Assembly: GCF_900168055.1 (NCBI RefSeq)
Contig: NZ_FUYS01000001.1
Coordinates: forward strand, 1-64,000
DNA: 64,000 bases
Source: Parapedobacter luteus
GTDB lineage: Bacteria > Bacteroidota > Bacteroidia > Sphingobacteriales > Sphingobacteriaceae
Direction of reading: 5' to 3'
Position 1 is the first letter of the stretch, and every line of letters starts with the position of its first letter. The notes below the pieces were generated by a model. The model saw only the letters and a list, made by a program, of their open reading frames with translations, was not told the origin of the DNA and did not search any database. Shown here piece after piece: positions 2,549-38,319 of this stretch. The translations under genes were made by a program, and so were the position numbers.

Positions 2549-3967
2549 TTAGTTGATTTGCCGTACACCCGTAGTGGCACCGCCATCTAACGTGAGGTTC
2601 ACCGGTTGGTTGGTCTCCCACGCCCCACGTGTGAAATCCGGTATATCGAGTGAGCCTGATCGGTTGGTTACGGACTGTTCGCTCAACGGAAAGATACTGC
2701 TCCATAGCGCGCCGTCGTAAACGTCTTGGTCCAGCGGCAGGCCGTTTCGCAGGCAATCGATCAACCGCCAGTCCATAACGAAATCCATTCCCCCGTGTCC
2801 GCCTATTTGCTTGGCTACCTCGCCAACATGTTTGATGAGGGGCGGTGTGTACCGATTATACAAGTCCTGCAATTCGTGTTCTTTAAGCCAATCATGGCCA
2901 AAAGCAATGCGCTCAGGTGACGGCCATTTGGACGCTACGCCCTTGGTCCCGCTGATGAGGTGAATACGCGAGTAGGGACGCGGTGAGCTGACGTCATGTT
3001 GTACCATAATGGACTTTCCCTTAGCGGTCTTGATTAAGGTCGTGTTCATGTTTCCACGGTAGTTCGCGCCTACAAAAGGTTGGAAAAATCTGTCTTCTTT
3101 GGCTTTTTCCTCAGCGGTTTGCGCCATTATGAAGTCATTGGTCGAAAGCGAGACCAAATAGTCCATCTTGTCGCCTCTATTGATATCGAGGCATTGGGCA
3201 ATAGGGCCAAGGCCGTGGGTGGGATATAGGTTTCCGTTGTGCGTGGCATTCATCCGTAGCCGCCACATATCGGCATAGCCGTTTTTGTCAAAGTTCAGTT
3301 CCAGTAAATCATGGATGTATGCACCTTCAGCATGAATAATTTCGCCGAATAAGCCGTTTCGAGCCATATTGAGGGTGAGCATTTCAAAGAAATCATAGCA
3401 GCAGTTTTCCAGCATCATGCAATGCCGCCTTGTTTTTTCGGAGGTTTCCACGAGCTCCCAGCACTCGTCAAGGGTGACCGCTATGGGTACTTCGCACGCC
3501 ACGTGTTTACCGTGTTGCATGGCGTAGACCGCCATCGGGGTATGCAGGTGCCAGGGGGTACAGATATACACGAGATCGAGTTCCTCGTTGGCCACCATGT
3601 CTTTCCAGCCCTCTTCCCCACTGTAGGCCTTGCCTTTCGGGAGCCCCGCTTTTTCCAGTATAGCCTGTGTTTTTTCAACCCGATTGGGATCCTTGTCACA
3701 GAGCGCTTTGATTTCCACGCCGTCGATGTGCGATATGCGTTGCACAGCACCGGGGCCACGCATTCCTAAACCGATAAAGCCGATGCGTACCTCGTCGATC
3801 TTGGGTGCGGCGTATCCGCTCATGTTAAAGCGCTGGGGTCGCATCTGTTGATAAGATGATGGCTGTAAGTTCTTTGCATTTGCTTCGCCCGTCACGGCCG
3901 GTAGCGTTGCTACGGCTCCAGAAAGCAAGGTAGCGTTTTTAAGGAAGCTTCTACGGTTGTATTTCAT
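2549..3967 (-). CDS. Gfo/Idh/MocA-family protein, GH109-type glycosidase, Tat-exported
   Basis: A 472-residue protein with a twin-arginine signal (NRRSFLK, residues 4-10, then a hydrophobic stretch to about residue 28), so it is probably exported folded with its bound NAD. The Rossmann motif GFIGLGMRG is at residues 63-71; ICTPWHLHTP and CEVPIAVT are the oxidoreductase-fold positions. HGLGP and GGHGGMDF match GH109, the NAD-dependent alpha-N-acetylgalactosaminidases, which use a transient oxidation mechanism. Divergent from the NagB fusion gene, which fits amino-sugar use. Other secreted Gfo/Idh proteins are less specific, so GH109 is likely but not certain. Confidence 0.8.
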   Translation of the reverse strand: MKYNRRSFLKNATLLSGAVATLPAVTGEANAKNLQPSSYQQMRPQRFNMSGYAAPKIDEVRIGFIGLGMRGPGAVQRISHIDGVEIKALCDKDPNRVEKTQAILEKAGLPKGKAYSGEEGWKDMVANEELDLVYICTPWHLHTPMAVYAMQHGKHVACEVPIAVTLDECWELVETSEKTRRHCMMLENCCYDFFEMLTLNMARNGLFGEIIHAEGAYIHDLLELNFDKNGYADMWRLRMNATHNGNLYPTHGLGPIAQCLDINRGDKMDYLVSLSTNDFIMAQTAEEKAKEDRFFQPFVGANYRGNMNTTLIKTAKGKSIMVQHDVSSPRPYSRIHLISGTKGVASKWPSPERIAFGHDWLKEHELQDLYNRYTPPLIKHVGEVAKQIGGHGGMDFVMDWRLIDCLRNGLPLDQDVYDGALWSSIFPLSEQSVTNRSGSLDIPDFTRGAWETNQPVNLTLDGGATTGVRQIN

Positions 3968-4653
3968 AACAGCAATTGGGTAGTAACAATTTTTATAAGC
4001 AAGTATAGGACGGTTAGTCGAGTAATCAAAGCGTTAAGTCAACGCAACCGTTTGTTTAAAATGCGTTATCCGTCAATAGTTCTTTTTTTAGCAATCCCCT
4101 CCGCTTCCGAAGGCTATTGTGGTTTACCGATCGGCTACCGTTTGCTTACCTTTCGTCTATCCCTCGCTTACTCCTGGTTTACACTTGCTATACCCTTTCT
4201 TTACCGATTCCATACCGTTTCTTTACCCCTTCTATACTCTTTCTTTACCCTTTCTTTACCGTTTCTTTACCCTTTCCATACCGATTCTATACCGTTTCTT
4301 TACCCCTTCTATACCCCTTCTATACCCTTTCTTTACCGTTTCTTTACCCTTTCCATACCGATTCCATACCGATTCTTTACCCTTTTCTTACCCGTATAGT
4401 AACCGATGGGTACGGTAAAGGTAGCGGATCTGTAACGGAATACCGTTCAATTCCTATCTTCAGCGGCTACCGGTGGTCAATCCGGTGGATGTTCTGGTAA
4501 GATTCGAAATTTTATAAGCATTACCTGGCGCGGCATTGATGACAATGTGCGTTCCGGGGGCAGATCAACCGACGCACACGATTGCATAACGTTGTCCATC
4601 TAAAAAAAGCAATTATTTGCAAAAAATCTACGCGACGTATAGTCATTTATCAT
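3968..4653. other. Divergent intergenic region holding the 11-bp array
   Basis: About 680 bases between the GH109 start and the NagB promoter. Apart from the 11-bp array (4125-4436), I see no coding region. No clear TAnnTTTG box is present on the minus strand in front of the GH109 gene. Confidence 0.6.
4125..4436. repeat. Tandem array of about 27 units of 11 bp, pyrimidine-rich on the + strand
   Basis: TACC (or a one-base variant) recurs exactly every 11 bases from 4125 (4125, 4136, 4147 and onward) to about 4433. In the regular core (4191-4389) the unit is TACC[C/G][T/A/C]TTC[T/C][T/A]. The variation is confined mainly to four positions. A higher-order repeat is visible: 42 bases at 4246-4287 recur exactly at 4323-4364, that is 7 units or 77 bp later. 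The ends decay gradually. No unit contains a stop codon on the + strand, so all three + frames stay open; those frames are not genes. The array lies between the divergent GH109 and NagB genes. Confidence 0.9.
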
Positions 4654-4661
4654 TAGTTTTG
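4654..4661 (+). promoter_or_regulatory. -7 promoter box of the NagB fusion gene
   Basis: TAGTTTTG matches the Bacteroidota -7 consensus TAnnTTTG. It lies 27 bases before the ATG at 4689. No convincing TTG-type -33 box is seen at standard spacing. Its position argues against an upstream start at 4617, which would lie before the transcription start. Confidence 0.5.
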
Positions 4662-4688
4662 CGTCTCACCTTATACGTAATTCCTAAA

Positions 4689-6617
4689 ATGGCGAGATTA
4701 AATTTACTGGAAGAAACACGCTTCGAGAAAGTACCCGTAAGTGTTTACTCCAATCCGACCACGGCTTCGTTGGCCGTGGCCAAGCGTATTGCCGACCTTA
4801 TCCGCGGCAAACAAGAAAAAGGTGAGCAGGCCATCCTTGGCCTTGCTACAGGTGCAACCCCTGTAAAAGTATATGCAGAGTTGGTACGCCTGCATCGGGA
4901 AGAAGGGCTCAGTTTCAAAAACGTCATTACCTTCAACCTTGACGAGTACTACCCCATGTTGCCCGATTCGGAACAGAGCTATGTGACGTTCATGAACAGG
5001 CACCTCTTTGATCATGTTGATATTGACCGGGCCAATGTACACATTCCCGATGGCACATTGCCTATGGAGGCTATCCATGATTATTGCTTGGCTTACGAGC
5101 AGAAGATTACGGAATTGGGTGGCCTCGATCTGCAGATACTTGGTATCGGCCGTACAGGTCATATCGGATTCAACGAACCGGGTTCTGCTCCCAATTCCGG
5201 CACGCGATTGGTTACGCTCGATGATTTAACACGTCGTGATGCCTCCCGCGATTTCGGCGGTAAGGAAAATGTACCCACCAAAGCCATCACCATGGGTATC
5301 GGCACTATTTTCAAGGCCCGGGAAATTATCCTGATGGCATGGAATGAGAAAAAGGCCGAAATCGTAAAGAAAGCTGTCGAAGGCGAAATTTCGTCCGATG
5401 TCCCTGCTACCTATCTGCAATTGTCCGATAGCGTTGAGTTTGTACTCGACAAGGATGCGGCCTCCCAACTGACTCGCTTCGATACTCCTTGGCTGGTTAA
5501 GGACTGTGAATGGGACCGGAAGACCATTAAAAAAGCAGTTGTTTGGCTTTCGCAGACACTTAAAAAACCCGTGCTGAAGCTTACCGAAGACGACTACAAT
5601 AACAACGGTATGGCTCAATTGGCAACAGAAAAGGGCCCTGTTTACAACATTAACATCGATATTTTCAACCAATTGCAGCATACCATTACGGGATGGCCCG
5701 GAGGAAAACCGAACGCTGACGACAGCCAACGGCCCGAACGGCGTGATCCGGCGAAGAAGCGTTCCATTATCTTTTCGCCACATCCGGATGATGACGTAAT
5801 CTCCATGGGGGGTACGTTCATCCGCCTGGCAGACCAAGGACATGAGGTGCATGTGGCTTACCAGACGTCCGGAAACACGGCGGTTTGGGATGATGACGCC
5901 TTGCGGTTTATCGAATTTGCAACGGATTTTGCCAAATCGCAGGGTATCGACACGCAAAAATTGGAGAGCCTGTATAAGGATGCACGGCAATTCATCCAAG
6001 GCAAAAAACCCAACCAAATCGATACGCCGGAATTGCTTACTGTCAAAGGGCTTATTCGCAAGGGAGAGGCTATTGCCGGTGCCCGGTTTGCAGGCCTCCC
6101 CGATGAAAACATCCATTTTCTGAATTTACCATTCTACGATCGCGGAAAATACAGTAAAAACTTGGTTTATGAAGACGATATTCAACAGACAATGGAACTG
6201 TTGCAACGTGTAAAACCTCATCAGATTTTTGCCGCTGGTGATTTCGCAGATCCGCATGGTACCCATAAAGTGTGCTTTGATATCATCCATGAGGCAATGA
6301 AACGGCTGCGTAAAACAGAGGCGTGGACAAGAGACTGCTGGGTATGGCTGTACCGCGGAGCTTGGCACGAATTTGAGATCCACGAGATTGAAATGGCTGT
6401 GCCGCTTTCGCCACAAGAAGTGTTGCGCAAACGGTATGCGATTTTCAAGCACCAGTCGCAAAAAGATGTACCCGTGTTTCCCGGCGACGACGCGCGTGAA
6501 TTTTGGGTGCGTGCTGAGGAACGTACACGGGAAACCGCCAAATTATACGACGGCCTGGGAATGGCTGAATATGAAGCGATAGAAGCGTTTGTACGGTGGA
6601 AATTTGAAGATGACTAA
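4689..6617 (+). CDS. nagB: Glucosamine-6-phosphate deaminase (NagB) fused to a PIG-L/LmbE deacetylase domain
   Basis: A 642-residue two-domain protein; the start at 4689 (MARLNLLEE) is chosen because the -7 box is at 4654. Residues ~20-265 are the NagB fold, which converts glucosamine-6-phosphate to fructose-6-phosphate and ammonia: NLDEYY with D85 (Asp72 of the E. coli enzyme) and GRTGHIGFNEPGS with H158 and E163. The catalytic Asp141 of E. coli NagB (NDGH) is replaced by T156 here. Residues ~355-640 are a PIG-L/LmbE zinc deacetylase domain with PHPDDD (H365, D367, D368) and DPHGTH (H523, H526), so its metal site looks complete. Such fusions are known in Bacteroidota, but the role of the second domain is not settled to my knowledge. 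Deacetylation of GlcNAc-6-phosphate or a related sugar is an inference. Confidence 0.88.
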   Translation: MARLNLLEETRFEKVPVSVYSNPTTASLAVAKRIADLIRGKQEKGEQAILGLATGATPVKVYAELVRLHREEGLSFKNVITFNLDEYYPMLPDSEQSYVTFMNRHLFDHVDIDRANVHIPDGTLPMEAIHDYCLAYEQKITELGGLDLQILGIGRTGHIGFNEPGSAPNSGTRLVTLDDLTRRDASRDFGGKENVPTKAITMGIGTIFKAREIILMAWNEKKAEIVKKAVEGEISSDVPATYLQLSDSVEFVLDKDAASQLTRFDTPWLVKDCEWDRKTIKKAVVWLSQTLKKPVLKLTEDDYNNNGMAQLATEKGPVYNINIDIFNQLQHTITGWPGGKPNADDSQRPERRDPAKKRSIIFSPHPDDDVISMGGTFIRLADQGHEVHVAYQTSGNTAVWDDDALRFIEFATDFAKSQGIDTQKLESLYKDARQFIQGKKPNQIDTPELLTVKGLIRKGEAIAGARFAGLPDENIHFLNLPFYDRGKYSKNLVYEDDIQQTMELLQRVKPHQIFAAGDFADPHGTHKVCFDIIHEAMKRLRKTEAWTRDCWVWLYRGAWHEFEIHEIEMAVPLSPQEVLRKRYAIFKHQSQKDVPVFPGDDAREFWVRAEERTRETAKLYDGLGMAEYEAIEAFVRWKFEDD

Positions 6618-30629: not shown

Positions 30630-30727
30630 CCTTTCTATTTTTCCTTTTCTCATCTCTTTTTAATTTCTGTAGGTAATTTCTAATGGTGTTTTAATGGCTG
30701 TTTTAAGCCTGTCTAATACCTGTGAGG

Positions 30728-30735
30728 TACTTTTG
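30728..30735 (+). promoter_or_regulatory. -7 promoter box before the 165-residue protein gene
   Basis: TACTTTTG fits the -7 consensus and lies 41 bases before the ATG at 30777; no convincing -33 box accompanies it. Confidence 0.4.
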
Positions 30736-37470: not shown

Positions 37471-38319
37471 ATGGGACAAAAAGCAAATCCAATAGGTAAC
37501 AGATTAGGAATCATCAAAGGCTGGGATTCCAATTGGTTCGGGGGCAAGAACTATTCCGATAAATTAGTTGAAGACGAGAAGATCAGGAAATACCTGTCGG
37601 TTCGTATCGCCAAGGGCGGGGTAGCCAAGATAGTTATCGAGCGTACATTGAAACGCATTACAGTGACTATCCATACGGCTCGTCCAGGGATCGTGATTGG
37701 CAAAGGTGGGCAGGAGGTTGATAAGATCAAGGAAGAGCTGAAGAAGCTGACGAAGAAGGATGTTCAAATCAATATTTTTGAGATTAAACGTCCGGAATTG
37801 GAAGCTCAGTTGGTGGCCGAAGGGGTCGCTAAACAACTTGAAGCGCGTATTTCTTTCCGCCGCGCGATGAAAACTGCCATTGCATCTACAATGCGCATGG
37901 GCGCTGAGGGCATAAAAATCATGTGTTCCGGACGTTTAGGAGGGGCTGAAATGGCCCGGACCGAACAATATAAGGAAGGACGTATTCCCTTGCATACATT
38001 CCGCGCAGATATCGATTATGCATTGGTGGAAGCATTGACCACTTACGGGAAAATCGGCGTGAAGGTGTGGATATGTAAAGGTGAGGTTTATGGCAAGCGG
38101 GATTTATCGCCTAACGTAGGGCAGACATCAGGCGTAAAACAACGCGCAGATGGCGGAGCGGGTGAATTCCGCGGTGATAACCGCCGTGGTGGCGGTGAGC
38201 GTCGCGGAGGTGATCAGCGCCGTGGTGGTGGTGAACAACGTCGCGGTGATCAACGTCGTGGCGGGGCACCTGGCCAACAACGTAGCGGAGGAAACCGGGG
38301 CGGTCAAAGGAGAGGTTAA
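37471..38319 (+). CDS. rpsC: 30S ribosomal protein S3 with RGG-rich C-terminal tail
   Basis: 282 residues. Residues ~1-225 are S3, with the KH domain ([20 protein letters not shown]) and the C-terminal domain with [24 protein letters not shown]3 forms part of the mRNA entry channel. The last ~55 residues are an unusual low-complexity Arg/Gly-rich tail with repeated RRGG and GDQRRGG units, resembling RGG RNA-binding tails. The extension is encoded by repetitive GGTGATCAGCG-like DNA. Confidence 0.96.

Follow-up and report, generated by a model that had tools for sequence, protein, structure and literature searches.

What is the 11-bp array that separates two divergent amino-sugar genes in Parapedobacter luteus, and does it belong to those genes? 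The array lies in a 64,000-nucleotide stretch of contig NZ_FUYS01000001.1, which was analysed as a whole and is referred to here as the window; all coordinates are positions in it. The gene on one side encodes a Gfo/Idh oxidoreductase with a GH109 C-terminal domain (2549..3967, minus strand), and that on the other a fusion of glucosamine-6-phosphate isomerase and a PIG-L deacetylase (4689..6617, plus strand), both of them outside the element. An earlier, sequence-only reading had described the array as tandem units with a 77-bp higher order and had offered a phased binding array or a regulatory RNA among its possible roles. It missed the inversion within the array, its dispersed copies and its partner gene family, DUF6266.

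Anatomy of the window array

The array extends from about 4125 to 4443, slightly further than the ~27 units ending at 4436 counted earlier, and comprises 29 consecutive 11-base units, all of which (29/29) start with TA. TACC was exact in 21 of the first 25 units, the other four starting with TATC, TACT, TACA and TACT; these 21 occurrences in the best single phase compare with a maximum of 3 in 1000 shuffles of the region. Identity at lag 11 was 0.71 across 4121-4440, and TRF returned periods of 11, 22 and 77 at the array. The longest period reflects an internal duplication of seven units, in which a 42-bp block at 4246..4287 (plus strand) recurs exactly at 4323..4364 (plus strand), confirming the 77-bp higher order on top of the unbroken TA steps.

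The TACC units end at ~4399 and are followed by GGTA, with the TA phase unbroken. The earlier reading of TACC as the recurring unit applies only up to ~4399, beyond which the units invert. Two unequal arms make up this dyad, a long one of 25 units and a short one of ~4. The long arm (TACCNNNNNNN; 4125..4399, plus strand) has the own-genome consensus ~TACC[CG]WTTCYW, with TACC pointing to the centre. At the dyad centre (TACCCGTATAGTAACCGATGGGTA; 4389..4412) the orientation flips and TA is kept in the 11-bp register. The short arm (4400..4443, minus strand) contains GGTA exactly at 4409-4412 and 4420-4423 and is degenerate beyond. A dyad pattern matched the array at 4378-4412 and 4389-4423, with one mismatch each.

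Two plus-strand frames were free of stops over 4125-4400, as had been claimed for all three, and the remaining frame contained a single stop, the end of an ORF at 4052-4399; such openness is expected because the units are pyrimidine-rich. No Rfam match was found in 3900-4700 up to an E value of 1. Elsewhere in the window, 18/36-bp tandem repeats were observed at 38169-38264.

Copies, symmetry and genomic position

We compared the own genome (G000) with those of relatives, including Parapedobacter composti (G002), P. koreensis (G003), P. pyrenivorans (G004), P. indicus (G005) and P. defluvii (G006), Olivibacter sp. XZL3 (G022), Pedobacter antarcticus (G260), P. cryoconitis (G350), Pedobacter sp. 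MC2016-15 (G280) and Pedobacter sp. MC2016-24 (G236). A similarity search with 4100-4460 found six places in the own genome, the window included, and matches in 7 of 60 genomes, the own genome included. These copies and those found by the dyad pattern dispose of the possibility that the array is confined to this site. All 19 arrays found by similarity, the window's included, show the flip from TACC to GGTA by eye across seven genomes, and they had been picked by similarity, not by symmetry. The dyad pattern itself matched 10 of the 60 genomes, some by one single-mismatch hit only. When up to two mismatches were allowed, 68 of 300 genomes from the order matched, an upper figure because some matches were other tandem repeats or chance-like. 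A further scan returned at least 80 stretches, mostly from Parapedobacter, Pedobacter, Olivibacter and Bacteroidales/Bacteroidota MAGs, with a few unrelated matches. Distinct TACC places numbered from none to about ten per genome where listed, with more in P. cryoconitis, and array length across the class was ~60-320 bp.

The word is not always TACC. TTCG arrays (facing CGAA) were plentiful in G001, the genome of a congener, and were also found in P. composti, P. indicus, P. defluvii and Olivibacter sp. XZL3, each of which carries both TTCG and TACC arrays. A universal exact register across the centre was ruled out, since the TTCG arrays of G001 shift phase at the core; many P. cryoconitis arrays contain one extra base by eye, and our array chain finder, which requires register across the centre, is blind to such phase-shifted cores. 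In P. antarcticus the array is a bounded element, with outer ends common to the copies by eye. The class consists of arrays built from 11-bp units in intergenic DNA, most of them with two arms facing each other across a dyad, and its families have a copy directly 5' of a DUF6266 gene; the window array is a solo member of the TACC family. A search of viral contigs with the exact dyad pattern gave two matches. One (L222) was taken for a fortuitous GTAC repeat within an ORF and the other (L223) had no chain of six units; since neither is an array of this kind, a phage origin of the arrays was rejected.

We examined how the arrays differ among themselves. The arms of Parapedobacter TACC arrays are complementary only at the conserved bases. 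Shifted by one unit, the two arms of P. antarcticus arrays agree more often than those of other arrays (60% versus 21% exact; 20 comparisons), and one orthologous array pair differs by about one unit. An early impression of concerted evolution, with whole words swapped between P. antarcticus and P. cryoconitis, came down to no rate difference: array identity was 0.81, against 0.83 and 0.88 for the flanks, in the one pair measured, only two of six pairs being alignable through both flanks. In the TCGTA family, identity was 0.83 within genomes (n=15) and 0.81 between genomes (n=63), with no clear within-genome excess. Two own-genome arrays, G000:C10 and G000:C15, were 0.98 identical, and the same site in P. 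koreensis gave 0.76.

Between the same two amino-sugar genes, the array is absent in G001, P. indicus and P. defluvii, where the intergenic region measures 232, 227 and 348 bp versus 722 bp in the window, and P. koreensis retains a remnant of four or five units; in P. composti, P. pyrenivorans, G007 and G008 the oxidoreductase was unmatched in the stretch read. The segment 4060..4571, by eye without counterpart in the intergenic region of P. indicus and P. defluvii, marks the maximal extent of a possible insertion, and no target duplication was recognised there. With copies beside other genes, these absences and the truncation leave a link to amino-sugar genes unsupported. Another site is the intergenic region, toward the SHMT side, of a gene for a 1138-aa protein, read as IleRS. 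A TACC array occupies it in five Parapedobacter genomes and is absent in P. composti, G007 and G008; in G001 the site holds an 11-bp array of another word, TTCG facing CGAA. At three loci 5' of the 1138-aa gene (L214, L215, L218), the intergenic region that holds the TACC array also contains, by eye, a palindromic repeat of the type TGATTCGGGCGG...CCGCCCGAATCA, which occurs about twice in P. indicus.

Gene context was recorded for 64 TACC-type arrays, among them DUF6266-linked arrays and repeated orthologous sites. Nineteen were divergent, 31 tandem and 9 convergent among the 59 classed (5 more were unclassed), close to the 33/54/12% divergent/tandem/convergent share of intergenic DNA estimated from the 64-kb window and a set of loci (convergent, 15% versus 12%), both figures coming from simple ORF calls. 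Array placement in intergenic DNA is independent of transcription direction, and because of these shares a terminator or operator was rejected as a general role. Six of 10 P. antarcticus arrays had a flank match in the closely related P. cryoconitis, with the comparison confined to loci that carry arrays, suggesting that at least those positions are old. DUF6266 was prominent among recurrent neighbours; response regulators, kinases and ABC ATPases recurred too, but these are large families. No neighbour cluster occurring in at least three loci looked like a transposase (named by eye, a few by Pfam), and apart from DUF6266 and the large families of regulators and transporters we recognised no function common to the neighbours. 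A gene of ~100 aa adjoins a TACC array in four Parapedobacter genomes (L043, L048, L060, L063). In the one searched it matched HTH_17 (excisionase/MerR-like), and its product is a possible alternative candidate for a binder of the arrays.

Arrays upstream of DUF6266 genes

A family search for DUF6266 (Pfam PF19781), to which the comparison of array neighbours had pointed, gave 143 matches in 14 genomes, with 1 to 23 per genome. Ninety of the 143 loci were read, 30 as returned by the search and 60 chosen, mostly first genes of tandem sets. The signal was lag-11 identity in a 66-bp window within 900 bp, with cut-offs of 0.50 and 0.55. Upstream of DUF6266 genes it reached 0.50 in 74/90 regions and 0.55 in 60; downstream, the counts were 1/90 and 0/90. 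Random 900-bp pieces of the 64-kb window reached either cut-off in 3/300, and regions upstream of other ORFs in 7/152 and 4/152, respectively. The latter control comprised ORFs of at least 200 aa from the window and 27 Parapedobacter/Olivibacter loci, excluding upstream regions over known arrays (8/157 before removal of a duplicate locus and one DUF6266-like ORF). Of the 63 regions reaching 0.55, 60 had lag 11 as the strongest of lags 6-17; the signal was missing upstream of DUF6266 in 16/90. The 11-bp arrays are partnered with DUF6266 genes, on their 5' side.

The words of these arrays are gene specific and include TCGTA, TAGGG, ATCGT, CGGA, CGGTG, TACC, TTCG and others. Automated searching recovered a word recurring at 11 bp in 75/89 DUF6266 loci; its inverse lay nearby in 53 of the 75, with two or more inverses in 31 and none found in 22, and a single inverse word may be chance. 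Array similarity tracks DUF6266 identity (Mantel rho 0.18, 0/1000 permutations as high, 58 arrays), as a gene and its linked array would do by linkage alone. In 28/60 cases (shuffles, 5.7±2.1) the stretch from array to ATG contains a TAnnTTTG box, which we take to be the Bacteroidota -7 element; the other 32 have none. The distance from array to box varies, unlike that of a simple activator site. The linked arrays fold better than their shuffles, with a mean z of -2.5 and 31/60 below -2, compared with -0.46 and 8/89 in the control. At three loci (L257, L261, L263) a separate 10-bp phased hairpin (TTGGCA...TGCCAA) was seen by eye 3' of the TTCG arrays and upstream of DUF6266 genes; its stems measure 16-18 bp, with matching changes on both sides between species.

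The window array has no DUF6266 gene beside it, hence its designation as solo; among the linked arrays of the library it is closest to one from P. koreensis. The own-genome array G000:C10, which was outside the comparison library, is separated from a DUF6266 gene by 1.7 kb that include an AAA_14/DUF4143 gene. For a first set of 40 solo TACC-type arrays, the best match was sought among 97 pieces from upstream of DUF6266 genes. Six genomes had a linked array in this library, and all of their solos (28/28) were closest to one from the same genome; in Pedobacter sp. MC2016-15, which has two linked arrays, three of the seven solos went to one and four to the other. The remaining 12 solos (P. luteus, P. 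composti, P. defluvii) matched best in other species of the genus. This perfect matching was undone by a second set of 24 further solos, 14 of them without an own linked array in the library, which gave own-genome best matches in 3 of 10 testable cases: a P. pyrenivorans array (L060) matched its own genome, a P. indicus array (L062) that of P. pyrenivorans, and of eight P. cryoconitis solos two matched their own linked array and six that of the close relative P. antarcticus. Taken together, the two sets give 31/38 testable solos that are closest to a linked array of their own genome; the other seven matched related species.

Other words also occur in both linked and solo form. TCGTA arrays numbered one linked and three solo in P. 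luteus, one linked and four solo in P. composti (one with one mismatch), one linked and two solo in P. koreensis (one with one mismatch), one linked in G008 and one solo in P. indicus. TTCG arrays were linked in P. composti (C44), P. indicus (C21 and C29) and P. defluvii (C28) and solo in P. indicus (C8 and C17) and P. defluvii (C1, C3 and C11). P. composti and P. defluvii carry TACC arrays, yet no TACC-linked DUF6266 gene was found in either, and G001 has 91 and 84 (overlapping) TTCG-pattern matches and one DUF6266 gene, which lacks an array. At the site of a LysR-type gene, P. composti and P. koreensis have an array and a DUF6266 pair. In P. luteus the array there is followed directly by the HD-like gene (HD match below the Pfam cut-off) that is found beyond the pair in P. 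koreensis, which suggests that solo arrays can be remnants after DUF6266 loss. A second short phased intergenic stretch in the window, at 30669-30734 (TAATGG, TAATGG, TAAGCC, TAATACC; lag-11 identity 0.56), is perhaps another solo array with its own word.

The first 60 residues of DUF6266 proteins carry a mean net charge of +8.3 (0 to 14), and the part after residue 100 one of -5.4 (89 proteins). No histidine was conserved at 60% or more among 63 sequences and no catalytic set was evident, so a REP-transposase role is unsupported. A profile search against solved structures gave weak fibronectin-type matches only (E 0.23 and 1.1). Searches of NCBIfam and PADLOC returned nothing and PHROGs one match at E 0.25; the one protein searched against phages and plasmids (L313) had no match in either. 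We found no mention of DUF6266 in the literature searched. In tandem DUF6266 pairs (L399 and others), the second gene often lacks the basic N-terminal segment, its match beginning at about profile position 20-37.

Possible nature of the arrays

We favour, at somewhat less than even confidence, the reading in which the window array serves a DUF6266-linked DNA-binding protein as an orphan binding platform and has spread in a REP-like manner. Each unit would provide one binding site per helical turn. The binder would most likely be DUF6266 itself, acting through its basic N-terminal segment, a candidacy suggested by the charge of the first 60 residues and by the way words go with paralogues. The protein may assemble as two converging rows that meet at the dyad centre, and at a DUF6266 locus occupancy of the array would control DUF6266. 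Solo copies would be non-autonomous descendants spread in intergenic DNA, or left after DUF6266 loss, their spread being REP-like in logic without a known transposase. The window array probably has little effect on the neighbouring amino-sugar genes. Of the roles offered by the sequence-only reading, the phased binding array is the best supported, given the strict 11-bp spacing, facing arms, family word and upstream position at DUF6266 genes, whereas a regulatory RNA is not favoured.

No description of such arrays was found in the literature searched. In ParR/parC and other iteron arrays, short sites are helically spaced, also at 11 bp, and protein binds cooperatively; the present arrays differ in being chromosomal and multi-locus, with many words per genome and arms head to head. 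DnaA forms oligomer arrays at oriC, on sites ~11 bp apart in two opposed rows, but the array words are unlike DnaA boxes and the arrays occur at many loci. REPs are described as palindromes of 20-40 bp with GTAG or CGTC tags, usually in over 100 copies, and are associated with a RAYT gene (PMC2817692, PMC3733652). The arrays resemble REP/BIME and RAYT in being dispersed intergenic repeats with inverted symmetry, with a cognate repeat flanking a gene and solo copies in the same genome. On whether the repeat word follows the gene, as it does for REPs, the evidence is divided: the Mantel comparison and 31/38 solos speak for it, and the 7/38 solos nearer another species and the arrays of G001, P. 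composti and P. defluvii that have no linked gene of that word speak against it. They differ from REPs in that the window array is ~320 bp of TACC/GGTA units and in that TACC places number about ten or fewer in the genomes listed (more in P. cryoconitis). Moreover, the array lies 5' of the gene only, whereas RAYT repeats lie on both sides, and the gene is DUF6266, not a Y1 tyrosine transposase. The E. coli gyrase motif covers ~130 bp, and its G/C content is phased to either side of the cleavage site, with a modelled helical repeat of 10.7 bp/turn (PMC6379681). Strong gyrase sites and BIME-2 are likewise phased at close to one helical turn per repeat to either side of a centre; the array words, in contrast, are strongly conserved and DUF6266-linked. 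Since each known kind that was tested failed a defining feature, DUF6266-linked 11-bp dyad arrays would appear to be a new class. The window array has the exact 11-bp units and the inverted second arm of this class and lacks the adjacent DUF6266 gene. Should solo copies have been moved by an ordinary transposase, the class would be a variant form of repeat element.

The strongest competitor, though unlikely, is a REP/MITE-like mobile repeat, moved in trans by a transposase, for which DUF6266 is cargo or a favoured 5' landing place and not the binder. It would account for the intergenic placement regardless of transcription, the patchy spread (at most 68/300 genomes, none to about ten TACC places where listed), the absence of the array between the same genes in three species and its truncation in one, and the common outer ends in P. 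antarcticus. It fits poorly with neighbour clusters free of transposase-like genes and with the lack of a recognised target duplication; the word-by-paralogue specificity is unexpected of a mere landing place, and at least the six P. antarcticus positions with P. cryoconitis flank matches are old. Quite unlikely is a self-propagating minisatellite-palindrome that grows by slippage and template switching, its solos being functionless scars of lost DUF6266 cassettes. The 77-bp duplication, the orthologous pair differing by about one unit, the one-unit shift between P. antarcticus arms and the missing DUF6266 pair beside a retained array in P. luteus agree with such growth and loss. Slippage does not readily explain an exact 11-bp register, inverted arms and a TACC word kept across species and genera, nor why 11 is almost the sole period upstream of DUF6266.

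Slightly less probable again is an operator regulon, in which a DUF6266-linked factor controls the genes beside every array, the window's amino-sugar pair included. The promoter box between array and DUF6266 start in 28/60 cases is what an operator would lead one to expect, as are solo positions common to several species, such as the 1138-aa gene/SHMT site in five Parapedobacter species. The 9/59 arrays between convergent genes, contexts that match the intergenic DNA share, neighbours without a recognised shared function outside DUF6266 and large regulator/transporter families, and the same gene pairs existing without an array all count against it. It is very improbable that the arrays are topological sites whose phased DNA wraps DNA gyrase, as analogues of strong gyrase sites or BIME-2. 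The phased ~130-bp E. coli motif and the enrichment of BIME-2 repeats in gyrase cuts (PMC6379681) lend this some appeal, but gyrase needs neither family-specific words nor a DUF6266 link, 29 units exceed a 130-bp footprint, and the distribution is patchy. Scarcely probable, finally, is an array transcribed into a hairpin, terminator or regulatory RNA. A-form RNA has ~11 bp per turn, and the DUF6266-linked arrays often fold well; nevertheless, outside their conserved bases the arms of Parapedobacter TACC arrays show no complementarity, which led us to reject a hairpin or RNA as the general principle. The promoter box, sought on the downstream side only, also lies downstream of the array in 28/60 linked cases, the convergent excess is small and Rfam gave no match.

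Beyond the orphan binding platform that we favour lies a wider and somewhat unlikely possibility, that DUF6266 is a new sequence-specific DNA-assembly family. Each paralogue would have a private phased head-to-head word array upstream, copied elsewhere, and the result would be many non-cross-reacting nucleoprotein filaments serving autoregulation, chromosome marking or enzyme-free selfish spread. The association ties DUF6266, an uncharacterised family, to a precise DNA partner, making binding directly testable. It also suggests that the organising principle of dispersed repeats may be helical phase and symmetry instead of a fixed word, such that word-based repeat searches could split or miss them, and it would offer a natural series of protein-word pairs for studying the divergence of DNA specificity.
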